From Algorimicrobium echini (GTDB lineage Bacteria; Bacteroidota; Bacteroidia; Flavobacteriales; Flavobacteriaceae): DNA of 64,000 nucleotides. The stretch spans positions 24,511-88,510 of the forward strand of contig NZ_FOVN01000003.1 of NCBI RefSeq assembly GCF_900115185.1, given 5' to 3'. Below are positions 9,801 through 47,850 of the stretch, in pieces. Position 1 is the first letter of the stretch; the number at the start of each line of letters is the position of its first letter. The translations under genes were made by a program, and so were the position numbers. The notes under the pieces were generated by a model. It was not told where the DNA came from. It worked only from the letters and a program-made list of their open reading frames with translations, and ran no database searches.

Positions 9801-10767
9801 TATTTCTGCCATTGCTGTTTTAGGGCCCTTGCTTGAAGCCGAAGGTTATACCGTGCATTATGCGTCGTCTCAACCCAACAAACTGTTACGTTTGCTGGAT
9901 ATGCTTTGCAGCGTCTGCTACTTTGCGAAACGTACTGACGTGGTTTTAATAGATACTTATAGCACCAGTAATTTTTATTATGCGTTACTGGTAAGTCAGC
10001 TTTGCCGCTTGTTAGGACTTGCTTATATCCCCATATTGCATGGTGGCGAATTACTAACCCGATTAGCGGGTTCGCCAAAATTAAGTGCTTTACTATTTAA
10101 GTATGCTTACCGGTTGGTTTCTCCTTCCAAATTTTTACAGGTTGCTTTTAATCGGACTCGCTTTGCACCCGTAGTGTATATTCCTAATTCGCTTTCTATT
10201 GGGTATTATCCTTATCAAAAGAAACAGTATGAAAGCATTCGCCTGCTTTGGGTACGCTCTTTTTCATCTATTTATAACCCCCAACTCGCTATTCGGGTTT
10301 TAAAGCGTTTACAGGATGCTGGTTATGATTGTGAGCTCTGTATGGTAGGTCCAGATTCTGGTGATGGAAGCTTTCAAGCTACCCAGCAATTAGCCGAAGA
10401 TATGGCTGTATCCGTGCGGTTTCCCGGGAAATTACCGAAAGCGGATTGGTTGGCTTTAGCTGCTGATTATAATGTGTTTATCAATACCACTCGTTTTGAT
10501 AATATGCCGGTGAGTGTCATAGAAGCCATGGCATTAGGCTTGCCCATAGTATCAACTGATGTAGGTGGTTTGCCATATCTAATAAACCATGGAGAAACCG
10601 GCTTATTGGTGCCACCAAATGATGCTGTAGCTTTTGAAAACGCTATAGTACAGCTGGTATCTGATAGGGAAGCGACTCACACGATGACTAAACGTGCCCG
10701 CGATATGGTTGAGGAGTTTGATTGGACGGTTGTTAAGGGTAAGTGGTTTGAGGTTTTGGATATGTAG
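9751..10767 (+). CDS. Glycosyltransferase family 4 (GT-B fold)
   Basis: This 338-residue GT4 enzyme starts inside the 3' end of the polymerase gene in another frame (50-base overlap), a strong sign of coupled translation. The N-terminal domain has VLYIGNNLRTAQTNISAIAV and IPILHGGELLTRL. The C-terminal domain has IRLLWVRSFSSIYNPQLAIRVL, then CMVGPDSGDGS, and finally NTTRFDNMPVSVIEAMALGLP with the E-x-x-A-M-A-L-G motif. FDNMPVSVIEA replaces the more usual EGFG motif, as in a subset of GT4 enzymes. It is the last glycosyltransferase before a spacer and the initiating transferase. The donor sugar is unknown. Confidence 0.87.
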   Translation: MTNVLYIGNNLRTAQTNISAIAVLGPLLEAEGYTVHYASSQPNKLLRLLDMLCSVCYFAKRTDVVLIDTYSTSNFYYALLVSQLCRLLGLAYIPILHGGELLTRLAGSPKLSALLFKYAYRLVSPSKFLQVAFNRTRFAPVVYIPNSLSIGYYPYQKKQYESIRLLWVRSFSSIYNPQLAIRVLKRLQDAGYDCELCMVGPDSGDGSFQATQQLAEDMAVSVRFPGKLPKADWLALAADYNVFINTTRFDNMPVSVIEAMALGLPIVSTDVGGLPYLINHGETGLLVPPNDAVAFENAIVQLVSDREATHTMTKRARDMVEEFDWTVVKGKWFEVLDM

Positions 10768-11079
10768 TTTGTGCTTGCTAGTTTTTTTTTTTTTTGGCAG
10801 GCAGGTAAGGTTTCTAGTTGGAAGTGAGAAAATTATTAGGCATTAGGCATTAGGTGTTGAGTGACAAGTGAAAAATGAATAATGAATAATGAAAAGTGAC
10901 AGGCTGAAAATTCGGGTTGAAGACTGTACATTGTTGCGGTTGGGATTAGGGACAAGCAGGTATTCTGGTGAGGGCTTTGTTATTTTGAACTAGTATGTCT
11001 GTGTTCTAAAACTACAAACTGTAAATAAACTTGCAAGATTTTGTGAACTTATTATCTTTACCAAGCTATTAATACATTC
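10768..11079. repeat. Low-complexity spacer with T14 tract and reiterated short words
   Basis: These 312 bases carry no gene. They contain a run of fourteen T (10782-10795) flanked by imperfect TGCTTGC/GGCAGGCA arms, then GGCATTAGGCATTAGGTG-type and GAATAATGAATAATGAAAAG-type direct repeats (about 10838-10900). The last 50 bases hold the likely promoter of the sugar transferase gene. The spacer resembles the one at 5082-5236 in style but not in sequence. Confidence 0.55.
11031..11060 (+). promoter_or_regulatory. Putative promoter of the initiating sugar transferase
   Basis: TTG (11031-11033), then 19 bases, then TATCTTTA (11053-11060), is one mismatch from the Bacteroidota pattern TTG-N19/20-TAnnTTTG. 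It lies 19 bases before the ATG at 11080. It would let this gene be transcribed independently of the upstream cluster. Confidence 0.4.
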
Positions 11080-12471
11080 ATGGGAAAACAGACTATTCAC
11101 TTTAATATATCGGAACGCAAGTTGCTTTTGCGATTGGTAGATGTTTTTAGTATTCTGCTATCGCTGTATTTTGTTAGTAATTGGTTTCATTTTGATTATT
11201 TTACCATTACACCTGAAAATTGGACATGGGTAGGCGTTTTAGTCGTTTATATAACTATTTTTGGGACAGTTTTTGAACTGTATGATTTACAGAAAGCGAG
11301 TAGACCTGACAAAGTATTTGCTAATATTGTTTTAACGGTATCGGTAACCGTTCTGTTTTATTTATTGACCCCTTTTTTAACCCCTTTATTACCTTCCAAC
11401 CGGTTACAGATTCTTTATTTTTATCTGGCTATTATAGTAGCGCTGTGCCTTTGGCGGTTGGTGTATGTTTATTTTATTACATCACCTCGGTTTTATAAAA
11501 AAGTGCTGATTGTAGGAGAGACTTCCAATATTGAGACCATAGTAAATGCTTTTAAGCATGCGGATCCAAGTTATAAAATCGTGGGTTATATTAACTGTGA
11601 GCAAGTTATGCAAGACCGTATTAGGTTTCATGATATTGTTGAATATCCTCCTGAAGCCCTCCATCAAGTTATACAAGAGCAGTCCATATCTGAAATAGTT
11701 GTAGCTAGCTATAATGCTGAAACGATTACTTCTGATATTTACTATGATTTAATTACTTTGTTAGAGCGTGGTTTTCCTATAAAAGAGTACACGCAAGTGT
11801 ATGAAGATATTACTTACCGCGTTCCCGTTCAGTTTGTAGGGAAAGATTTTTATAAATATTTTCCGTTTAGCAGGAGCAACCAAAATAAACTGTACTTGTT
11901 TTTTCACCGGACGTTTGATTTGATTCTAGCCCTAATAGGTAGTTTTTTAGGTCTTTTATTTGTGCCTCTTATTTTAATTGGGAACTTAATTGGTAATAGA
12001 GGTCCGTTGTTTTATTTACAAGAACGTGTTGGAAAAAATGGTCATTTATTTCGAATTATTAAATTCCGTACCATGGTTAATCATGCAGAAACTGGCGGTG
12101 CCGTTTGGGCAACAAAAAATGATAGTCGGATTACACCATTTGGAAAGTTTTTAAGACGTTCACGGTTGGACGAAGTTCCTCAATTTTTAAATATTTTAAT
12201 GGGTGATATGAGCTTGATTGGTCCACGACCTGAACGGCCTTATTTTGTTAAAGAACTGTCTCAAGTGATTCCGTTTTATGAAACCCGTCATATTATAAAA
12301 CCTGGATTAACAGGTTGGGCTCAGGTTAACGTTCGTTACGGAAATTCGGTTGACGATAGTTTATTAAAATTACAATATGATTTGTATTATATTAAACATC
12401 GCAGCTTTTTCCTGGATTTTAATGTCATGGTGAAAACTATTGGGACCATGGTTTATTTTAGGGGTCAGTAG
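11080..12471 (+). CDS. Polyprenyl-phosphate sugar-phosphate transferase (WcaJ/WbaP-like, initiating)
   Basis: This 463-residue protein is the enzyme that normally starts repeat-unit synthesis by moving a sugar phosphate from a nucleotide sugar onto undecaprenyl phosphate. Four N-terminal membrane spans (about residues 14-130) are followed by a cytoplasmic Rossmann-like domain (VLIVGETSNIETIV, about 145-158). A re-entrant hydrophobic helix (about 272-295) follows. The catalytic bacterial sugar transferase domain (about 268-463) contains LFRIIKFRTM, RRSRLDEVPQFLNIL, GDMSLIGPRPER and PGLTGWAQV. These motifs are diagnostic and include the conserved Asp-Glu pair. The length is normal for the family. 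It closes the polysaccharide cluster. The transferred sugar (glucose, galactose or other) is not determinable. Confidence 0.92.
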   Translation: MGKQTIHFNISERKLLLRLVDVFSILLSLYFVSNWFHFDYFTITPENWTWVGVLVVYITIFGTVFELYDLQKASRPDKVFANIVLTVSVTVLFYLLTPFLTPLLPSNRLQILYFYLAIIVALCLWRLVYVYFITSPRFYKKVLIVGETSNIETIVNAFKHADPSYKIVGYINCEQVMQDRIRFHDIVEYPPEALHQVIQEQSISEIVVASYNAETITSDIYYDLITLLERGFPIKEYTQVYEDITYRVPVQFVGKDFYKYFPFSRSNQNKLYLFFHRTFDLILALIGSFLGLLFVPLILIGNLIGNRGPLFYLQERVGKNGHLFRIIKFRTMVNHAETGGAVWATKNDSRITPFGKFLRRSRLDEVPQFLNILMGDMSLIGPRPERPYFVKELSQVIPFYETRHIIKPGLTGWAQVNVRYGNSVDDSLLKLQYDLYYIKHRSFFLDFNVMVKTIGTMVYFRGQ

Positions 12472-37124: not shown

Positions 37125-39029
37125 TTACTTTTTTATAAATCTCTTGGTAACTTTGTTGCCATTAACATGTATTAATAAAAAGTATGTACCAGCACTTAAA
37201 TCTGATACATCAATTATTTCTGTAAATGTTCCAGAGGTTAATTTCTGCCCAAGCATATTTGTAATTTGATAAGTTGTTTCTTGAGTATTGTTTGGAAGTT
37301 TTACACGTAAGTTAGTATTAGAAACAGGGTTTGGAAATATGCTAACCGATTCGCTATTAAAAGTTTCTCTACTTAATGTGTTTTGAATTGTAATATTATC
37401 AATAGCAATATCGCTACTCCAATTGGAACCTCTTATAGCTCTAAACCTAAAACGAGCCGTTTGTCCTGAATAGCTGGATAAATCTACTTGTCTTGTTAAA
37501 TAAGCCTCACCATTAGTTTCTTGTTGTTGTCCTATAATTGCTGGTGTAATATCATTTGTAAATCCAGAACCAGTATCGATGTCTACATGTAATTCGCCCA
37601 TTGACAATCCAAACATGTGGTAATCGAATTCCAAAACACCATTCACTGTATTAATTTCTACACAAGGTGTTATATATTCCGCTACTTCCCCTGAAACGGC
37701 ATTAGATCCTTCCACAAAAATGTAATTTCCTGTACCAGATGCATCTGTTAATGGGCCACTACCAGTAGATGGTGTAGTGCCTGAATTTAATACCCATGTA
37801 AAATTAGCTGTTGAATTTGATTTCACAGTCCAACCATTTTCCGTAATGTCTGTTAGCGCGTCAAAATCACGACTTAACGGAAGTGTTTCTGTAGCGCCAA
37901 CCTTTATATACTCTGTATAACTTTTAGAAATAGTATTTTGCGCATTAGATACTGATAATTTAACGTCATAAAGTCCAGATGACAGATAGGTGTGTGTCGG
38001 GTTTTGAGTGGTGTAATCTGTAATATTATCACCATCAAAATCCCAAGCCCAACTTGTTGCTCCAACGGTTGTTTCAGAAAAAGCGACGGTTAATGAACTT
38101 TGACAACTTTGCGTGATATCTGCTGTAAAATCGACACTAATACTGGCACAATTAAAATTGTTTCTTGTTAGGGCATATGTTGCATACATTCTAGCATATT
38201 GTTGAGGCGTAAAAAGATCCCGACACTCTTTTCTAGAATAAGACATAATATTATTAGTTTGTGGCATATAGAAGTCGCCATTGGCATCTACATCAGTACC
38301 CGTATAATTGCATGATGAATTTACATTAGAATAGGATAAGGTTGGGTCTGCAGGTGTATCGCATATATAATCGCCTTCGGTTGTGCAATTGGAACCGTTA
38401 ACCAACTCATTTGGTGTGCCACCATGTGTGTGGCGCAAATTAAAAAAATGCCCCATTTCGTGTGCTAGTGTACTTCCGTTAGTAGCACATGAGTTGACCA
38501 TTAAAATTGTGTCATCACCACCAGGGTAATAAGCGTAACCGCATAGTGAACTTCCAGTACTTACTTTAGTAACCGTATTTGCAAAATAAATATTGATTAA
38601 ACCTGAAACGCTATGGGTAGCTGTTAAAATTCCTTCTTGGTCATCTTGAAAATCATAATAAGTATCGTTATCAATATAATTTATACCATCGCAAATAAAG
38701 AATTCTAAATTGGCATTGGCGTAAAATGCATTCATAGTAGTTATGGCATCATTTAACTCTGTGGTTGTTAATCCTCCTGTACCGCTAGAGGTTCTAATAA
38801 TGTGTGCTTTAACTGGAACAGAAGTTATAGGATTTGAAGCACGGAATTGGGGGTTGTTCAAAAAGGTTTCTTCAATTTCTAATAGTTGTTGTTTGTTATT
38901 TTGAAAAAAACGTAAGGATTCTGGTGTTTCAATTGTACCACAATTTTTATCTTGAGAAAATAATGGCAATTGAAAAAACAGTGCTACTGTTAGAAATAAT
39001 AGTAATTTGTTTAAAGTAGTAATGTTCAT
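37125..39029 (-). CDS. Secreted M43 zinc metalloprotease with PKD domain and T9SS sorting tail
   Basis: The 634-residue protein has a signal peptide (about 1-25) and an M43 (pappalysin-like) catalytic domain at about 70-295. The zinc motif is HEMGHFFNLRH (190-200, three histidines; the usual Gly of HExxHxxGxxH is Asn197), followed by the Met-turn IMSYS near 262. A PKD domain follows (about 298-378, WAWDFDGDN), then a MAM/jellyroll-like domain (about 385-555). The type A type IX secretion tail comes last (about 560-634, SIFPNPVSNTNLRV to KRFIKK). It is secreted or cell-surface and digests protein. The gene stands alone, opposite pyrD. Confidence 0.9.
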   Translation of the reverse strand: MNITTLNKLLLFLTVALFFQLPLFSQDKNCGTIETPESLRFFQNNKQQLLEIEETFLNNPQFRASNPITSVPVKAHIIRTSSGTGGLTTTELNDAITTMNAFYANANLEFFICDGINYIDNDTYYDFQDDQEGILTATHSVSGLINIYFANTVTKVSTGSSLCGYAYYPGGDDTILMVNSCATNGSTLAHEMGHFFNLRHTHGGTPNELVNGSNCTTEGDYICDTPADPTLSYSNVNSSCNYTGTDVDANGDFYMPQTNNIMSYSRKECRDLFTPQQYARMYATYALTRNNFNCASISVDFTADITQSCQSSLTVAFSETTVGATSWAWDFDGDNITDYTTQNPTHTYLSSGLYDVKLSVSNAQNTISKSYTEYIKVGATETLPLSRDFDALTDITENGWTVKSNSTANFTWVLNSGTTPSTGSGPLTDASGTGNYIFVEGSNAVSGEVAEYITPCVEINTVNGVLEFDYHMFGLSMGELHVDIDTGSGFTNDITPAIIGQQQETNGEAYLTRQVDLSSYSGQTARFRFRAIRGSNWSSDIAIDNITIQNTLSRETFNSESVSIFPNPVSNTNLRVKLPNNTQETTYQITNMLGQKLTSGTFTEIIDVSDLSAGTYFLLIHVNGNKVTKRFIKK

Positions 39030-39808: not shown

Positions 39809-40672
39809 ATGAGTGAATTAGTTAAAATTATTGAGTGTCCACGAGATGCCATGCAAGGCATTAAGACCTTTATTCCAACGGAACAAAAGGTGCAATATAT
39901 CCAGTCGTTACTACGAGTTGGATTTGATACCATTGACTTTGGTAGTTTTGTTTCCCCTAAAGCTATTCCTCAAATGGTAGATACAGCAGACGTTTTAGCG
40001 CAGTTAGATTTGAGCAAAACCACCAGTAAGTTATTGGCTATAATAGCTAATACGCGTGGTGCACAGGATGCAGCTAAACATGAACCCATTCAATATCTGG
40101 GTTATCCGTTTTCAATTTCTGAAAATTTTCAAATGCGAAATACGCATAAAACCATTGCTGAGTCTGTGGTAACCTTACAGGAAATTTTAGAAATAGCTGA
40201 CACCTATAAAAAAGAAGTGGTTGTTTATATTTCTATGGGTTTTGGTAACCCGTATGGCGATCCTTGGAATGTTGATATAGTAGGAGCGTGGACGGAAACG
40301 TTAAGCAACATGGGTGTTAAAATACTTTCTTTAAGCGATACCGTTGGAACGTCTGACCCTGAAAATATTGATTATTTATTCTCTAATTTAATTCCTAAAT
40401 ATCCACAAATAGAATTCGGTGCCCATTTGCATACCACACCAACAACTTGGTTTGAAAAGGTGGATGCAGCCTATCAAGCAGGTTGTATGCGTTTTGATGG
40501 TGCTATTCAAGGTTTTGGTGGTTGCCCTATGGCTAAAGACGATTTAACAGGAAATATGCCAACCGAAAAATTACTGTCATATTTTACCACTAAAAAACAT
40601 TCAGGGTTAAATGCGTTAAGTTTTGAAAGTGCTTATAACGAAGCAACTAAACTATTCTCTGTATATCATTAA
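39809..40672 (+). CDS. Hydroxymethylglutaryl-CoA lyase
   Basis: The 287-residue TIM-barrel enzyme cleaves HMG-CoA to acetoacetate and acetyl-CoA, the last step of leucine degradation. Family features are IIECPRDAMQGIKTFIPTEQKVQYIQSLLRVGFDTIDFGSFVSPKAIPQM (the ECPRD motif carries the catalytic Arg/Asp), ISMGFGNPYGDPW, LSDTVGTS, HLHTTP and a C-terminal FGGCPMAKD loop with the catalytic cysteine. I chose ATG 39809; the in-frame TTG at 39800 lies inside a promoter-like box. With leucine dehydrogenase at 29 kb it suggests active leucine catabolism. Confidence 0.9.
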   Translation: MSELVKIIECPRDAMQGIKTFIPTEQKVQYIQSLLRVGFDTIDFGSFVSPKAIPQMVDTADVLAQLDLSKTTSKLLAIIANTRGAQDAAKHEPIQYLGYPFSISENFQMRNTHKTIAESVVTLQEILEIADTYKKEVVVYISMGFGNPYGDPWNVDIVGAWTETLSNMGVKILSLSDTVGTSDPENIDYLFSNLIPKYPQIEFGAHLHTTPTTWFEKVDAAYQAGCMRFDGAIQGFGGCPMAKDDLTGNMPTEKLLSYFTTKKHSGLNALSFESAYNEATKLFSVYH

Positions 40673-40673
40673 C

Positions 40674-40711
40674 AAAAAAAGTCACTTGTTTCAAGTGACT
40701 CTTCTTTTAAT
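40674..40711. terminator. Bidirectional terminator after HMG-CoA lyase
   Basis: GTCACTTG (40681-40688) pairs perfectly with CAAGTGAC (40692-40699) around TTT, with A7 before it and TCTTCTTTT after. It separates HMG-CoA lyase from the converging TonB receptor gene; it is stronger for the minus strand, where the A7 becomes T7. Confidence 0.75.
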
Positions 40712-40747
40712 ATGTTTTTTTGGATTATCTCGAATGATTAATTATTT

Positions 40748-42967
40748 CTAAAGCCTAAATTCTAATCCTAAATTAGCTCCAAACGGATGACCAGGTCTCA
40801 ATCCTGCTGGTACTCTAGAAACTGCATAAGTAGCATCAAATACATTAATAATGTTTGATGTTAGACTTAAATGTTGGTTGATATGATATTTAGCTGAAAA
40901 ATCAACAACAAAATTCGAATCTACTTTTTCATTATCAGGAATGGCTCCTGTACCTGCTTGGGTTCTAAAAGCACCTAAATAACGACTGCTGGCATTTAGT
41001 TCGTATTTTTCATGTTCTAAAGATAGCATCAGGTTGAACTGATGTTCAGGGATATAGGGTAGTTGATCACCGGCTTCAACCGTTCCCCAAAGGTCCTCAC
41101 TACTTCCAAAACTATTTAAAAACTTGGTATTTGTATATGTGTAACCAAAAGAAATAGGTAAAGAATAGGTGTTGTTTGATACTAATAAATCGTAATTAAA
41201 CAAAGCTTCAATACCTTTTACAGCCACTTCACCAGCATTAAATTGTTCCAAGGAACCAGTTCCGCCAGTTGCGGCTAAATCACTTCCTAATAAATTACTA
41301 TAATCGTTATAGAAAGCTACCACTTCACCTTTTATTCCAAAAATTGAAAATCGTGAGCCTAATTCGTAATTTATACTTTCTTCAGGTTCTTGGCCAGGTT
41401 GATTGCTTGGTGGCGAAAACCCTTTGTGTACTCCTCCAAAAATGGTAGCCTGATTATTGAACTTATAATTAAAGCCAACACCAGGAATGAAAACATCTAC
41501 TTTATTTTCTCTAGAAGCTAAATCATTTCCGGTTCGTGACACATCATTTTTGTCAAAATCTTCTCGTAATAAAACTATGTTTTCATAACGTAAACCTGGT
41601 GTAATGGTTAGTTTGTTATAGCGAAACTTATACATAGCAAATGCAGCAAACGCTTTGGCAGAACTAACTCTGTTAGCATCTGTTCCTGGAATACCAGCTT
41701 CGGTTTGTGTCATGATACCATTGGAATTAATGGCGAATTTATCAACCCATTGAAAACGATCTTCTTCATCATAATGATAACGTAAACCAATTTCGATATC
41801 ATGAAATGTGTTTTCACCATTAAAGTGGTAATCTAATTTAGTTTGAATGCCTTTAGCGTTGTATAAACGATTATTAGCTTTTACATTTAATGCGTTATCA
41901 GCAGAATTTACTTCGCCTCGCAGCACATCCATATAATTTGAATATACTATTGGATCACTAACAATATCTGCAATCCCAACTTTAGTGTCATTTAGAGTTA
42001 CATCATTTAATTTATACCAATTTCGCTTAAATCGGTTGTAATAACCTGTTGTGGTAATTCTGAATTTTGATGATAAATCAAGTTTATGTGTTGCTGTAAA
42101 TTGAACATGTTCTGCATTCATTTGGTCTTCTTGCGAAGCTGCATAGCGGTTATAAGGATTGGCACTAAAATCAGCATCTGTTAAACCTAAATAGGTTTCG
42201 TTTGATACTTCATCGGAATATTGAAATTTCATTTCTAGGGCTTGTCTTATTTTTGCAGTTTTAGATGAGTTTATTCGGAATTTAGCAACGACATCATTTT
42301 TGTCAAAACCCGTATTCCTATTATCTAATAGGTTTTTAAAACCATCTGAGTTGAAATTTAAATACTCAACCATATAGCCGAAATTCTCTTTGCTATCTCC
42401 AATTTTGGCTTGAAACTGTCCAGTGTCAAATGAACCATAACTACCAAAAACGCGACCATAAAACGAATCTGGTATTTGTGAAGACACCATATTTATAGCG
42501 CCACCTGTAGTAAATGGACCATATTGAACTTGACTACTACCTTTTAAAATTTCTATTGCCTCCATACGGGCTATAGAAGGGAAATAATAAGCAGCTGGCG
42601 CACTATAAGGCGCAGGTGCAATAAGTACACCATCTTCCATAATTGATATTTTTGCGCTACGCTCTGGCGATGTGCCTCGAAGACTAATATTGGGTCTTAA
42701 TCCAAAACCATCTTCCTCATAAATATTAACACCAGGTACGGTTCGTAACACACGATTTATGTCTGTGTAATTAAATTTAGCTAATTCTTTTGGTGAAATA
42801 TAATAAGCAGAACCTGTCCTGTTTTGTGCTACATATTTATTACCAAAAATGACATTGGTGGAAATAATAACCTCGTTTAAATTTTGAATAGAATCGGTCT
42901 CTTTTTTTTCCTGTGCTACTAATGATACACCGAATAAGGCCGCGATTAGTGATAACTTGATCCTCAT
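40748..42967 (-). CDS. TonB-dependent outer-membrane receptor (FecA-like)
   Basis: A 739-residue receptor with a signal peptide (about 1-18). The plug domain (about 27-165) contains NEVIIST (a TonB-box-like start), INRVLRTVPGVNIYEEDGFGLRPNISLRGTSPERSAKISIMEDGVLI, and MEAIEILKGSSQVQYGPFTTGGAINMVS. The 22-strand barrel follows, ending in GANLGLEFRL with a terminal aromatic-x-Leu pattern. The plug resembles FecA-type ferric-chelate receptors; the substrate is therefore likely an iron or other metal complex, but this is inference. It lacks the carboxypeptidase-like N-terminal domain of SusC proteins. It diverges from the thioredoxin-ApbE-DUF4266-DUF3570 operon with a shared 215-base regulatory region. 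Confidence 0.88.
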   Translation of the reverse strand: MRIKLSLIAALFGVSLVAQEKKETDSIQNLNEVIISTNVIFGNKYVAQNRTGSAYYISPKELAKFNYTDINRVLRTVPGVNIYEEDGFGLRPNISLRGTSPERSAKISIMEDGVLIAPAPYSAPAAYYFPSIARMEAIEILKGSSQVQYGPFTTGGAINMVSSQIPDSFYGRVFGSYGSFDTGQFQAKIGDSKENFGYMVEYLNFNSDGFKNLLDNRNTGFDKNDVVAKFRINSSKTAKIRQALEMKFQYSDEVSNETYLGLTDADFSANPYNRYAASQEDQMNAEHVQFTATHKLDLSSKFRITTTGYYNRFKRNWYKLNDVTLNDTKVGIADIVSDPIVYSNYMDVLRGEVNSADNALNVKANNRLYNAKGIQTKLDYHFNGENTFHDIEIGLRYHYDEEDRFQWVDKFAINSNGIMTQTEAGIPGTDANRVSSAKAFAAFAMYKFRYNKLTITPGLRYENIVLLREDFDKNDVSRTGNDLASRENKVDVFIPGVGFNYKFNNQATIFGGVHKGFSPPSNQPGQEPEESINYELGSRFSIFGIKGEVVAFYNDYSNLLGSDLAATGGTGSLEQFNAGEVAVKGIEALFNYDLLVSNNTYSLPISFGYTYTNTKFLNSFGSSEDLWGTVEAGDQLPYIPEHQFNLMLSLEHEKYELNASSRYLGAFRTQAGTGAIPDNEKVDSNFVVDFSAKYHINQHLSLTSNIINVFDATYAVSRVPAGLRPGHPFGANLGLEFRL

Positions 42968-43006
42968 TTTTATTTAGACTTATTATGAATAGTTTTTTTC
43001 AGGCTG

Positions 43007-43037
43007 CAAAAATAGAGTCAAAAATGGGTTTCTGCAA
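43007..43037 (-). promoter_or_regulatory. Putative promoter of the TonB receptor
   Basis: On the minus strand, TTG (43037-43035), 20 bases, then TATTTTTG (43014-43007) gives a full match to the Bacteroidota promoter. It is 40 bases from the receptor start codon. Confidence 0.6.
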
Positions 43038-43100
43038 GTTTATTTAGAACAAATAAAAATAAAATCTGTAAGTAACAGGCATTGATCTTTTTACAGTTGT

Positions 43101-43114
43101 GTAACATTTGTTAC
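43101..43114. promoter_or_regulatory. Perfect 14-bp palindrome, candidate operator of the divergent region
   Basis: GTAACA-TT-TGTTAC is a perfect inverted repeat between the TonB receptor and the thioredoxin-ApbE operon. A further half-site GTAACA occurs at 43072-43077 and a GTTAC at 43153-43157. It sits about 65 bases before the thioredoxin ATG and looks like a dimeric repressor or activator site. No regulator gene is in the window. Confidence 0.5.
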
Positions 43115-43182
43115 GTTCAGATTACAATAATTACACAAACTTTGCGTTATCCATCGTTACATAAAATCTTCAACTATACACT

Positions 43183-43620
43183 ATGAAAAATTCTGTATTG
43201 CTAATATTATTTGTTATTGTCTCAAATAGTGTTTTCTCACAAAACTGGAAGACTAATTTTGAAGCCGCTCAACAAGAAGCATTGCAATCAAAAAAACCGA
43301 TTATTCTTGTATTTGCTGGAACAGATTGGTGCTCACCATGTATTAAATTAGATAAACAAATATTTCAATCTGATACGTTTAAAATTTATGCCACTGAAAA
43401 TGCTATTTTAGTTCGCGCCGATTTTCCAAGGAAGAAGGAAAATGCCTTATCTAAAACACTACAAGAACAAAACAGAAAACTAGCAGACAGGTATAACCCA
43501 AATGGCTTTTTTCCGTTTGTTTTAATGCTAAATGCTGAAGGTGTTGTTTTAGGTGAACTAGGTTATGAAAAAATTGAACCACAAGATTACGTGAATAAGC
43601 TTCAAGCATTTGTAAAATAA
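43183..43620 (+). CDS. Secreted thioredoxin-family protein
   Basis: The 145-residue protein has a signal peptide (cleaved after VFSQ, residue 20) and a thioredoxin fold with the active-site pair in GTDWCSPCIKL (Cys50 and Cys53) and a downstream cis-Pro loop near GFFPFVLML. It is the thioredoxin-like (DUF255/thioredoxin_7) type that keeps periplasmic thiols reduced or oxidised. It opens an operon whose other members are ApbE, DUF4266 and DUF3570; the ApbE ATG follows its stop directly. A likely role is redox care of the cysteines in the DUF4266 tail, but that is inference. Confidence 0.85.
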   Translation: MKNSVLLILFVIVSNSVFSQNWKTNFEAAQQEALQSKKPIILVFAGTDWCSPCIKLDKQIFQSDTFKIYATENAILVRADFPRKKENALSKTLQEQNRKLADRYNPNGFFPFVLMLNAEGVVLGELGYEKIEPQDYVNKLQAFVK

Positions 43621-44601
43621 ATGAAAGTCATTGTAACAGCATACTGTTTTTTTTTACTCTCAACAATTACCTTTGCACAAGGTACTTATAAGCGCACCAT
43701 GAAATTAATGGGAAGTCGCTTTGATATTACTGTAATTGCAGATTCGCAAATTCAAGCTGATGGTTTTATAGACCAAGCCGTTAGCGAAATTGAACGGATT
43801 GAACGTTTAATATCTTCTTGGGACGCTAATTCCCAAACATCGCTAATCAATAGGAATGCAGGTATAAAACCTGTAGTTGTAGATAAAGAATTATATCATC
43901 TTATTGAACGTGCAATTGGTATATCAAAACTCACGCAAGGCGCTTTTGATATTTCGTATGCATCTATGGATAAAATTTGGAAATTTGATGGCAGTATGAC
44001 TGAAAAACCGACTGATTCTGAAATTTCAGAATCCGTTGTAAAAGTTGGTTATCAAAACATTATTTTAAATAAAGAAGAGACTAGTGTTTTCCTGAAGCTA
44101 GCTGGAATGAAAATTGGTTTTGGAGCCATAGGAAAAGGCTATGCAGCGGACAAGACTAAAGATTTACTGAAGCAAAGAGGTGTTAAAGCTGGAATCATAA
44201 ATGCGTCTGGCGACATGAATACTTGGGGTTTTCAAACAACAGGTGAAACTTGGAAAATAGCTATAACCAATCCGCTAAATAAGGACAAGGTGTTTGCTAT
44301 GTTACCAGTTGATAATCGTGCTATAGTAACATCTGGAAATTATGAGAAATTTGTAAAATTTGATAACATTCGATATTCTCATATTATTGATCCTAGAACC
44401 GGTTATCCAAGTACTGGTATCATAAGTGTGAGTGTTTTAGCTCCAAAAGCAGAACTTGCTGATGCGTTGGCAACCTCCATATTTGTTATGGGTAAAGATG
44501 TGGGTCTCAACTTTGTAAACCAACTAGAAACTATTGATTGTATTATAATTAATGAATCAGGTGAAATTTTTTATTCTGATAAAATTCAACCAAAACAATG
44601 A
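43621..44601 (+). CDS. apbE: FAD:protein FMN transferase ApbE
   Basis: A 326-residue periplasmic enzyme that moves FMN from FAD onto Ser/Thr of extracytoplasmic proteins. After a signal peptide (about 1-20) the ApbE fold shows MKLMGSRFDITVIAD, INASGDMNTWG, IGFGAIGKGYAADKTKDLL (FAD-binding) and SHIIDPRTGYPST (the metal and FMN site). It starts at the base after the thioredoxin stop and overlaps DUF4266 by four bases. Its target should be encoded nearby; no RnfG/NqrC-type FMN-binding domain is present in this window, so DUF4266 or DUF3570 are the candidates. Confidence 0.93.
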   Translation: MKVIVTAYCFFLLSTITFAQGTYKRTMKLMGSRFDITVIADSQIQADGFIDQAVSEIERIERLISSWDANSQTSLINRNAGIKPVVVDKELYHLIERAIGISKLTQGAFDISYASMDKIWKFDGSMTEKPTDSEISESVVKVGYQNIILNKEETSVFLKLAGMKIGFGAIGKGYAADKTKDLLKQRGVKAGIINASGDMNTWGFQTTGETWKIAITNPLNKDKVFAMLPVDNRAIVTSGNYEKFVKFDNIRYSHIIDPRTGYPSTGIISVSVLAPKAELADALATSIFVMGKDVGLNFVNQLETIDCIIINESGEIFYSDKIQPKQ

Positions 44602-44807
44602 AAAAACTTTTAGTACTTGTGGTATTTGGGAGTTTATTTAATTCTTGCGTAACCGTTAAAGAATATGATAAAGTGAATATTAACGATCCAGAGATGGTGC
44701 TTTCGGCAAAAAAAATAGAGCGTTTTGAAACTAATTTTCAATTATATCGTGAAGCATCTTCTGGTGCAAATGGAGGAAAAACAGGAGGTGGCTGTGGTTG
44801 TAATTAA
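44598..44807 (+). CDS. DUF4266 small lipoprotein with Gly/Cys tail
   Basis: A 69-residue protein. The signal peptide ends at the lipobox FNSC (Cys17), so the mature lipoprotein has only about 53 residues. The middle (VKEYDKVNINDPEMVLSAKKIERFETNFQLYRE) is a conserved acidic segment. The C-terminus REASSGANGGKTGGGCGCN is glycine-rich with two cysteines, the hallmark of DUF4266. The segment SSGA resembles the S/T-GA part of the ApbE flavin-attachment motif, and the CGC could bind metal or be oxidised. It overlaps ApbE (ATGA) and is 1 base from DUF3570. No function is established that I know. Confidence 0.88.
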   Translation: MKKLLVLVVFGSLFNSCVTVKEYDKVNINDPEMVLSAKKIERFETNFQLYREASSGANGGKTGGGCGCN

Positions 44808-44808
44808 T

Positions 44809-46098
44809 ATGAGAAAATTAGCTCACATATTTATATTCGTTTTTAGTCTAGCAACTTTTGGGCAGTCTAAAAAAACGGATAGTATATCGACATATAAAAA
44901 GCGTGTTTTAGAAACAGCTGAAGTCGATTTTTTAATGAGTTACTATACCCAAGATGGTAATAATGCTGCCGTGTCTGGAGGAATTGGTACCGAAGAATTA
45001 ACAGATATTACGCCAACATTTGTAATTGCAATCCCTCTAAATAGCGACGATGTTTTAACGGTTGACGCTGGAATTTCAGCATATTCTTCAGCTTCTTCAA
45101 GCAATATTAACCCTTTTGATTCTTCAAATCCTGCTAGTCCATATTCGGATTCTTCAGGTGCTTCGGCTTCAGATGTATGGGTTAACGGTAATTTTAGTTA
45201 TGCACACAGTTCGGATGACCGAAACAATATTGTTGAAGGGCATATAAGTGTGGCATCTGAATATGATTATTTTTCAATTGGTTTTGGAGGAAGTTATACA
45301 CATTTGTTTAATGAAAAAAATACGGAATTAACCATTAAAGCAAATGTGTTTTTAGATACTTGGAATCCGCAGTACCCTATTGAATTACGACCTGATTTTT
45401 CAAACACAAATATTATAGGTTCAGGTATATATGATCCTTTTAAATATGAAGCGTTTACAGATGAGTCTCGAAATTCATACAGTATATCCTTTATTTTTTC
45501 ACAAATTCTGTCTAAAAACTTTCAGGCGTCCGTTTTTATAGATCTTGTTCAGCAAAATGGATTATTATCTACACCACATCAGCGAGTTTATTTTCAAGAT
45601 CAACCTGATTTTTTTATTGACGATTTTCATTTAGCGGATGACGTCGAACGCTTACCAGATACACGCTTTAAAATGCCAATAGGAGCGCGTTTTAATTATT
45701 TTTTAAATGAACGCTTAACGATTAGAACTTATTACCGCTATTATTATGATGATTGGGGGGTGAATTCGCATACAGCAAGTATAGAATTACCTTTCAAGAT
45801 ATCAGAAAAGTTTACCGTGTATCCACTTTATCGTTATTATACACAAACAGCAGCCGATTATTTTGCTCCATACAACGCACATTTGTCAACGGAAACGTTT
45901 TATACCTCTGATTATGATTTGTCTGAATTCAATAGTAATCAGTATGGTTTTGGTTTTAGTTATACGGATATTTTTGCTTCCGCTCATATCTGGAAACTGG
46001 GTTTAAAAAGTATAGATTTTCGCTATGGATATTATGATAGGAGTAATGGACTCTATGCTCATATAGCTTCGGTAGGATTTAAGTTTTTGTTAGATTAA
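44809..46098 (+). CDS. DUF3570 outer-membrane beta-barrel protein
   Basis: The 429-residue protein has a signal peptide (about 1-19) and a long beta-barrel typical of DUF3570, with repeated aromatic strands such as FTVYPLYRYYTQTAADYFAPY and LKSIDFRYGYYDRSNGLYAHIASVGFKFLLD at the C-terminus. ATG 44809 is chosen; the frame open from 44725 crosses the DUF4266 gene and has no signal peptide at its start. A serine-rich loop (about 93-120) contains DSSGAS, similar to an ApbE flavinylation site. It always seems to travel with DUF4266 and ApbE, and would form the outer-membrane part of that system. Exact role unknown. Confidence 0.86.
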   Translation: MRKLAHIFIFVFSLATFGQSKKTDSISTYKKRVLETAEVDFLMSYYTQDGNNAAVSGGIGTEELTDITPTFVIAIPLNSDDVLTVDAGISAYSSASSSNINPFDSSNPASPYSDSSGASASDVWVNGNFSYAHSSDDRNNIVEGHISVASEYDYFSIGFGGSYTHLFNEKNTELTIKANVFLDTWNPQYPIELRPDFSNTNIIGSGIYDPFKYEAFTDESRNSYSISFIFSQILSKNFQASVFIDLVQQNGLLSTPHQRVYFQDQPDFFIDDFHLADDVERLPDTRFKMPIGARFNYFLNERLTIRTYYRYYYDDWGVNSHTASIELPFKISEKFTVYPLYRYYTQTAADYFAPYNAHLSTETFYTSDYDLSEFNSNQYGFGFSYTDIFASAHIWKLGLKSIDFRYGYYDRSNGLYAHIASVGFKFLLD

Positions 46099-46343
46099 AT
46101 TATCTACAAGTTGAGGTTTTTGTTCTGTAATTCTAGTTGGATTTTATTTATTAATAAATAATGTTTTGACATAATCAAATGAAACCCAGCCCATATGTTT
46201 TATTCTATTTAAATAGATTTTTATTTTTTAAGACATACAGAAAAAGGGGTGTTAGTAAGCTGTATATCAAATCTTATTTCTTGAAACTGAAATCTAAAAA
46301 ATAATTTAACGCCAACTTAAAACTAATTTCTTTATTTAAATTG

Positions 46344-46351
46344 TATATTTG
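46344..46351 (+). promoter_or_regulatory. Putative -7 box of guaB
   Basis: TATATTTG matches TAnnTTTG and lies 26 bases before the ATG at 46378. No clear -33 element is visible. The 279-base gap before guaB (46099-46377) holds nothing else I can identify. Confidence 0.5.
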
Positions 46352-46377
46352 CACGCAATTATAACTGTAATTGCATC

Positions 46378-47850
46378 ATGATAGCACACACCAACAAAAT
46401 TTTAGGAGAAGGATTAACGTACGACGACGTTTTATTAGTTCCTGCATTTTCTGAAGTTTTACCTCGCGAAGTTAGCATTCAATCCAAATTTTCAAGAAAT
46501 ATTACTTTAAATGTTCCTATTGTATCGGCCGCTATGGATACGGTAACTGAAAGTAAAATGGCTATTGCTATGGCTCAAGAAGGGGGTATTGGAGTCTTGC
46601 ACAAAAATATGACCATTGAGGCGCAAGCATTTAAAGTTCGAAAAGTAAAACGTGCCGAGAGTGGTATGATTATCGATCCAGTAACATTACCTTTAACTGC
46701 TATCGTGCGTGATGCCAAACAGAACATGGCAGAATATAGTATTGGCGGAATTCCAATAGTGGATGACCATGGTGTGTTGAAAGGAATTGTTACCAATAGA
46801 GATTTACGATTTGAAAAAGAAGATGATAGACCAATTATAGAAGTCATGACTTCTGAAAATTTGGTCACTGCCGGAAAAGGCACCTCATTGCAAGATGCAG
46901 AAGGTATTCTACAAGAAAATAAAATTGAAAAATTACCGGTTGTTGATGAAAACAATAAACTGATTGGTTTAATTACATTTCGCGATATTACAAAACTCAC
47001 ACAAAAGCCGAATGCCAATAAAGATTCATTTGGACGATTGCGCGTAGCAGCCGCAATTGGTGTTACTGGAGATGCTCTAGAACGAGCTGAAGCATTGGTT
47101 GAGGCTGGTGTAGATGCGATTATTATTGATACAGCTCATGGACACACTAAAGGCGTTGTGACTATTTTAAAGGAAGTAAAAGCTAAATTTCCGCAGTTAG
47201 ATGTAGTTGTTGGAAACATAGCCACAGCTGAAGCAGCCAAATATTTAGTAGAAGCAGGTGCAGATGCCGTAAAAGTAGGTATAGGACCAGGTTCCATTTG
47301 TACAACACGTGTGGTAGCAGGTGTTGGGTTTCCGCAGTTTTCAGCCGTACTAGAGGTAGCAGCAGCCATAAAAGGTTCCGGTGTTCCCGTTATTGCAGAT
47401 GGCGGTATTCGGTATACAGGTGATATTCCTAAAGCGCTTGCAGCTGGAGCTGATTCAGTTATGTTAGGCTCCCTTTTAGCAGGAACGAAAGAATCGCCAG
47501 GTGAAACCATTATTTACGAAGGTCGAAAGTTTAAATCTTATCGTGGCATGGGTTCTGTTGAAGCCATGAAACAAGGTAGTAAGGACCGTTACTTCCAAGA
47601 TGTGGAAGACGATATTAAAAAGTTAGTACCAGAAGGTATAGTAGGCCGTGTACCTTATAAAGGGGAATTGAATGAAAGTATTCATCAATTTGTTGGTGGT
47701 TTACGTGCAGGCATGGGATATTGTGGTGCTAAAGATGTAGAAACCTTAAAGGAAACAGGACGTTTTGTGAAAATTACGGCTTCTGGGATTAATGAAAGTC
47801 ATCCACATGATGTTACTATTACAAAAGAATCGCCTAATTACTCGCGATAA
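46378..47850 (+). CDS. guaB: Inosine-5'-monophosphate dehydrogenase
   Basis: A 490-residue enzyme that oxidises IMP to XMP, the committed step of GMP synthesis. Motifs in order are [34 protein letters not shown], two CBS domains (about 95-205), DTAHGH, and the catalytic loop [11 protein letters not shown] with the active-site cysteine. These are followed by [27 protein letters not shown] and the flap [10 protein letters not shown]. Length and motifs are standard. It has its own promoter and abuts two small converging minus-strand genes. Confidence 0.96.

Follow-up and report, generated by a model that had tools for sequence, protein, structure and literature searches.

Which protein receives flavin from an ApbE whose gene has no familiar flavin-binding partner beside it, and what would the modified protein do? 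The question is raised by a locus of Algorimicrobium echini (Flavobacteriaceae), within a stretch of 64,000 nucleotides of contig NZ_FOVN01000003.1 (positions 24,511 to 88,510; assembly GCF_900115185.1), here termed the window. Genes for a secreted thioredoxin (Trx), ApbE, a DUF4266 lipoprotein and a DUF3570 protein form a compact unit there, at 43183-46098 on the plus strand. The module belongs to a redox system that was first described in 2021, here in the version of a marine bacterium, and its core claim is already published: DUF3570 is, as judged from a flavinylated homolog, nearly certainly the substrate of ApbE.

That report (Meheust et al., eLife 2021, PMC8238504) found ApbE clustered with DUF3570, a PF13899 thioredoxin and a DUF4266 protein whose tail carries CXC. 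For Chlorobium luteolum it showed that ApbE flavinylates DUF3570 at two serines of the motif; the protein made in Escherichia coli was flavinylated though it was recovered from the insoluble pellet. The 285 clusters with DsbD include 227 with DUF3570, 183 with the thioredoxin and 221 with DUF4266; 316 further clusters have no linked DsbD, and VIT1 is present in 25 clusters. In its main text the word 'barrel' is never used and 'outer membrane' is used for TonB receptors only. The function of the system is called uncertain, in agreement with a reading made earlier from the window alone (the sequence-only reading), which took the physiological role as not established. In the literature that we searched, no other article mentions DUF3570 or DUF4266, and a search for a flavinylated outer-membrane barrel returned nothing relevant.

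THE FOUR-GENE MODULE

Five genes, the four of the module and a divergent TonB receptor gene, were confirmed within window 40748-46098, where the sequence-only reading had placed them. Pfam matches of all five proteins exceed the curated cut-offs. Trx, ApbE and DUF3570 have Sec-type leaders and DUF4266 has a lipobox (NSC); with the Pfam matches, these signals uphold the identities proposed earlier for the thioredoxin, ApbE, the tiny lipoprotein and DUF3570. The module has the following features, in which FAD is flavin adenine dinucleotide and FMN flavin mononucleotide.

43183..43620, plus strand: secreted thioredoxin-like protein (Thioredoxin_7, DsbD-C/DsbH-like); Pfam PF13899, 9e-15
43621..44601, plus strand: ApbE, FAD:protein FMN transferase, secreted; Pfam PF02424, 2.2e-83
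44598..44807, plus strand: DUF4266 lipoprotein; Pfam PF14086, 8.7e-20
44793..44801, plus strand: invariant CXC of DUF4266 (Cys66-Gly-Cys68); homolog alignment
44809..46098, plus strand: DUF3570, 429 residues, predicted 16-strand outer-membrane beta-barrel, ApbE substrate family; Pfam PF12094, 3e-38, AlphaFold and Foldseek
45091..45171, plus strand: predicted extracellular loop L2 of DUF3570, residues 95-121; predicted topology and motif columns
45094..45096, plus strand: Ser96, predicted flavin site 1 (YSSAS; deviant, Ser for Gly); motif conservation
45163..45165, plus strand: Ser119, predicted flavin site 2 (SSGAS; canonical); motif conservation

Packing is as tight as had been described, with successive gaps of 0, -4 and +1. 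The Trx stop codon abuts the ApbE ATG at 43621, ApbE and DUF4266 share four bases (ATGA) where their reading frames overlap, and DUF3570 starts at 44809, after the +1 gap, and ends at 46098. Chance packing is excluded, because the order Trx-ApbE-DUF4266-DUF3570 is kept in 105 of 113 sampled DUF3570 loci (median gaps 1, -4 and 10). One sample, of 80 loci from named genomes, was picked by ApbE similarity and is rich in Flavobacteriaceae. A second, class-wide sample of 295 genomes has DUF3570 in 32, DUF4266 in 32 and both in 31, and the only two exceptions to their joint presence are incomplete genomes of one genus (G266 and G289). The co-occurrence search that the sequence-only reading had proposed for the four families thus gave strong conservation together. 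The genome is Bizionia-like: among named genomes the nearest are relatives of Bizionia, and ApbE shows 93% identity both to that of Bizionia algoritergicola and to that of a Flavobacteriaceae metagenome-assembled genome.

Like the published clusters, the window locus brings together ApbE, DUF3570, Thioredoxin_7 and DUF4266 with its C-terminal CXC. It differs from the DsbD-bearing ones in that DsbD is unlinked in this genome, a trait that the 316 published clusters share, and its first flavin site is SSAS, not [S/T]GA[S/T]. A group of distant loci from a phylum-wide search (L168-L197) is probably from Chlorobia, by kinship and a strong family-model match; ApbE, second in the window operon, follows DUF3570 in the distant loci read or was not seen in their flanking DNA. 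Several DUF3570 matches per genome are common in this group, with up to 9, partly split; such paralog expansion suggests diversified roles. One Aquimarina aggregata locus (L062) has trx and apbE without DUF4266 and DUF3570, and its ApbE may therefore act on another substrate.

THE SUBSTRATE OF ApbE

The genome has two ApbE genes and one FMN_bind protein. The latter, NqrC, is encoded third in an nqr-type operon of contig C7, with a lipoprotein-type ApbE about 1 kb behind that operon; the module's ApbE has a Sec leader without a lipobox. There is no PF04205 domain at the module locus, as the sequence-only reading had held, and the single genomic match is the one within the nqr genes. We considered whether the module's ApbE serves NqrC and rejected this, since the NQR region has its own separate ApbE, which leaves the module's ApbE free for DUF3570. 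In the Na+-NQR system too, ApbE flavinylates an extracytosolic subunit on Ser/Thr, but there the substrate is the classical FMN_bind protein NqrC and a separate lipoprotein ApbE is encoded close to the nqr genes. The earlier reading had named two joint signs against itself, a classical FMN_bind substrate elsewhere in the genome and a lack of conservation of the four genes together; NqrC supplies the first, and the second is contradicted by the kept gene order, so the reading stands unrefuted.

An alignment of 78 homologs (31-76% identical to the DUF3570 of the window) has Ser96 invariant (78/78) and Ser119 kept in 76. The ApbE consensus is D-x-x-[S/T]-G-A-[S/T] (PMC12052999). Site 2 (SSGAS) matches the canonical [S/T]GA[S/T], while site 1 of DUF3570 in Bacteroidia is [S/T]SAS, with Ser replacing the consensus Gly and the predicted acceptor Ser96 unchanged throughout. 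Nearly all DUF3570 proteins sampled from the distant loci have two canonical motifs, often with Asp (EDSVTGAS). From the alignments, Bacteroidia appear to use a relaxed form of the first predicted flavin site.

The sequence-only reading had left two targets, DUF4266 or DUF3570. For DUF4266 itself as the substrate one can cite the SGA near its tail, but at the next position, where the acceptor Ser or Thr should stand, 102 of 109 homologs have Asn, and the distant relatives read SGG at the would-be acceptor place; DUF3570 is moreover the proven substrate in C. luteolum. We regard flavinylation of DUF4266 as extremely improbable and rejected it as an acceptor. The other half of that proposal stands, as a DUF3570 homolog is flavinylated (PMC8238504). 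The more general view that ApbE here serves an outer-membrane substrate of a non-classical kind is also right.

THE DUF3570 BARREL

AlphaFold predicts DUF3570 as a 16-strand outer-membrane barrel (mean predicted local distance difference test score, pLDDT, 90; predicted template modelling score, pTM, 0.84). The best Foldseek matches are OccD/OccK, OmpG and AlgE barrels (best E 7e-11, prob 1.00), at template modelling (TM) scores of about 0.4, a value that places the model in the porin barrel class rather than in a barrel family. Assigning a function by fold was tried and rejected, as the solved neighbours are only generic porin-class barrels with low TM-scores.

The model has the hallmarks of an outer-membrane barrel: an even strand number, short periplasmic turns, long outer loops and both ends periplasmic. 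Barrels of the outer membrane have both chain ends in the periplasm, which puts the short turns of the model at its periplasmic face and the long loops on the exterior. In this predicted topology extracellular loop L2 spans residues 95-121, and the two serines, Ser96 and Ser119, are found at its base, one at either end. Taking the outer half as the loops plus the upper strand halves, and a conserved position as one at least 90% conserved, the extracellular half has 55 conserved positions among 243 and the periplasmic half 12 among 148 (Fisher p = 1.6e-4). In barrels of this sort variation is usually greatest in the outer loops, so the concentration of conserved residues in the outer half of the model points to a functional site on the outward side.

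Some relatives have unusual L2 loops. One locus (L072:4883-7784) has a tandem pair of DUF3570 genes, one with a long Asp-rich L2 between the flavin sites, and three Lutibacter loci (L076, L117 and L122) likewise have Asp-rich L2 loops, which might bind metal.

THIOREDOXIN AND DUF4266

The active site of Trx is WCSPC (cysteines 50 and 53, at 43330-43341), and a WCxxC motif is found in 115 of 120 Trx matches. DUF4266 matures to a lipoprotein of about 53 residues with a Gly-rich tail that ends CGC-N. Its GGCGC is invariant (109/109 homologs), its lipobox-like Cys is found by pattern in 100 of the 109, and its last 22 residues (48-69) are predicted disordered, with AlphaFold pLDDT under 50. In Capnocytophaga, surface export is signalled by K-(D/E)2 next to the lipidated Cys (PMC5080379). 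This signal was sought beside the lipidated Cys of DUF4266 and gave no match, so DUF4266 probably faces the periplasm. A flexible DUF4266 arm with two thiols, placed between thioredoxin and flavin, would be the simplest reading.

These same thiols could serve another end. In a periplasmic thiol or flavin system for repair or maturation, electrons would go to outer-membrane or secreted proteins, and metal genes would be adjacent because metal stress damages thiols. The DsbD-C/DsbH type of the thioredoxin and the suitability of CXC motifs for disulfide exchange speak for it, but it has no need of a covalent flavin on a barrel and leaves aside the concentration of conserved residues on the outward half of DUF3570; we think it rather unlikely.

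METAL GENES NEAR THE MODULE

In 16 loci the module has CusA (OEP-fused or plain RND) and CusB at distances of up to about 9.5 kb: nine Maribacter, Salegentibacter, a Bacteroidetes metagenome-assembled genome and five loci of the class-wide sample. Enrichment was estimated on the class-wide sample only, since the named loci were chosen by ApbE and are rich in Flavobacteriaceae, and nine of these 16 loci are Maribacter. A CusA-OEP fusion lies within 10 kb of 5 of the 33 modules of that sample, versus about 0.13 expected (Poisson 3e-7, among the matches listed); such fusions score high, and all are expected to be among the RND matches listed. Intact VIT1 likewise lies within 10 kb of 5 of the 33, versus about 0.11 expected. 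Both expectations were roughly calculated from copy number, a span of 20 kb and genome size; the probabilities are too optimistic because the sample includes related genomes. On the DUF3570 tree the CusA/CusB neighbour state changes 7 times and that of VIT1 4 times. In one genome (G065:C26:277751-278020) the VIT1 near the module is interrupted by a stop codon.

Some of these linkages are tight. One locus (L036) runs Trx-ApbE-DUF4266-DUF3570-response regulator-kinase-CusA-CusB-VIT1 with gaps of at most 56 bases, and in another (L040) CusA-CusB leads directly into Trx. Elsewhere the neighbours are a CDF cation pump and cytochrome b561 (L133), or VIT1, cytochrome b561 and a Rieske protein (L051), and Rieske-type proteins stand upstream of the module in 6 loci. 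The module is thus statistically associated with metal genes, and Cus-like regulators are among its neighbours.

The close linkage in several genera to CusA/CusB pumps and Cus-like two-component regulators would also suit electrons flowing the other way: surface flavins would take electrons from a reductant or metal outside the cell, such as Cu(I) or Fe(II), and pass them inward, as a detoxifying oxidase beside Cus-type pumps. A possible reversed direction is mentioned in PMC8238504. DsbD-thioredoxin chains, however, normally deliver electrons outward, and linkage to VIT1 points rather to reduced iron or manganese, so that we consider reversed flow unlikely.

THE DIVERGENT TonB RECEPTOR

Upstream of the module, and divergent from it, lies the receptor gene, with 215 bp of intergenic DNA common to both.

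40748..42967, minus strand: FecA-like TonB-dependent receptor, divergent neighbour; Pfam Plug and TonB barrel, FecA 3.8e-21
42968..43182, no strand: common intergenic region with inverted repeat GTAAC-ATTT-GTTAC at 43101-43114; upstream-region repeat count

The sequence-only reading had taken this receptor as a sign of metal uptake or reduction. The metal side of that proposal is supported by the CusA/CusB, VIT1 and CDF neighbours of other modules; the link to the receptor is not. A related receptor stands near only 5 of 113 modules, and among receptor orthologs (56-78% identity) in ten other genera the module adjoins one, the closest (G322), and is not near the other nine. The receptor is probably not part of the system, and we rejected it as a conserved partner.

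The same counts bear on the idea that the four-gene unit and the receptor form a ferric-citrate reduction and import system. The common control region, the iron links of other flavinylated systems (PMC8238504) and the closest solved relative of the receptor, FecA, favour it; the receptor is FecA-like only, as it misses the equivalog cut-off of NCBIfam NF041676 (FecA; 98.7 bits vs 1100). Besides the rarity of receptors near modules and of modules near receptors, the receptor slot in B. algoritergicola (L057) is filled instead by genes for a porin, an FMN_bind protein and a small protein. We hold such a system to be decidedly unlikely.

These slot genes of B. algoritergicola (L057:4630-6948) encode a Porin_O_P protein, a secreted FMN_bind protein with SGAT and a 166-residue protein that had no Pfam match; they may be another set of substrates for this ApbE. 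An upstream open reading frame of 100 residues (L057:6992-7294) repeats the start of a 234-residue protein encoded just downstream of DUF3570 (10536-11240), which looks like the duplication of a segment to either side of the module; the 234-residue gene is absent from the window, which has no gene at 46099-46377.

The inverted repeat lies 82 bases upstream of trx and is perhaps a regulator site. Repeats of the form GTAAC-N(2-6)-GTTAC occur in 5 of 107 Trx upstream regions versus 0.2 expected. An Rfam search of window 40000-47000 found no RNA element or riboswitch. Also in the window, at 37125-39029, is a gene unrelated to the module, for a secreted metalloprotease of M43 type that has PKD and MAM domains and a sorting tail for type IX secretion.

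PROPOSED MECHANISM

We propose that periplasmic ApbE attaches FMN to the DUF3570 serines, most likely while the motif is still linear and the barrel unfolded. With ApbE periplasmic and the predicted flavin sites outward, ApbE would have to act before barrel insertion, and the flavinylated protein recovered from the pellet is in line with this order. The folded barrel would carry one or two covalent FMNs at the base of an outward loop, as the model suggests. Electrons would pass from the cytosol through DsbD to the secreted thioredoxin (CSPC), from there to the CXC thiols of DUF4266 and on to the barrel flavins. The terminal acceptor, the least certain part of the chain, would probably be a redox-active metal, as ion or chelate, in the vicinity of the cell surface, as the gene neighbours suggest, and the system would then aid metal acquisition or detoxification.

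We give the whole chain, from DsbD through Trx, DUF4266 and the barrel flavins to metal, about an even chance. Several points weigh against it. A full-length DsbD is encoded on another contig, unlinked to the module, and its presence in the genome is weak support, because 30 of 31 DUF3570 genomes have one anyway. Site 1 of the window DUF3570 departs from the ApbE consensus. The model puts the serines at the ends of L2 only, not relative to the pore. Cytochrome b561 and Rieske neighbours in some relatives suggest that the electron donor may vary. In the window genome the only metal gene next to the module is that of the TonB receptor, and this proximity is not conserved.

A bolder form of the proposed chain is a haem-free conduit, in which the 16-strand barrel would bear covalent flavins on its outer rim, a lipid-anchored CXC arm reaching into the pore would feed it through the membrane, and metal would be reduced at the surface. 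We offer this tentatively, as a possibility. In outline it is like the MtrCAB-type conduits, where a barrel and redox cofactors move electrons to the cell surface, but covalent FMN and thiols would take the place of haems. FmnB and PplA of Listeria also use ApbE-type flavinylation of an exported protein for extracellular reduction; that system is Gram-positive, and its substrate is a lipoprotein with FMN-binding domains and no barrel.

Three points appear to be new: the modelled barrel topology with both flavin serines at the base of extracellular L2; the [S/T]SAS first site in the sequences from Bacteroidia; and the repeated occurrence of the module in closely packed rows of genes that include metal pumps of CusA/CusB type, VIT1 and Cus-like regulators. 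The rejection of DUF4266 as substrate and of the TonB receptor as partner is also added here. The outward flavin sites and the Cus-type and VIT1 linkage turn 'function uncertain' into specific testable predictions. If the proposal is true, bacteria would have a way to carry electrons through the outer membrane with flavins and thiols in place of multihaem cytochrome conduits.

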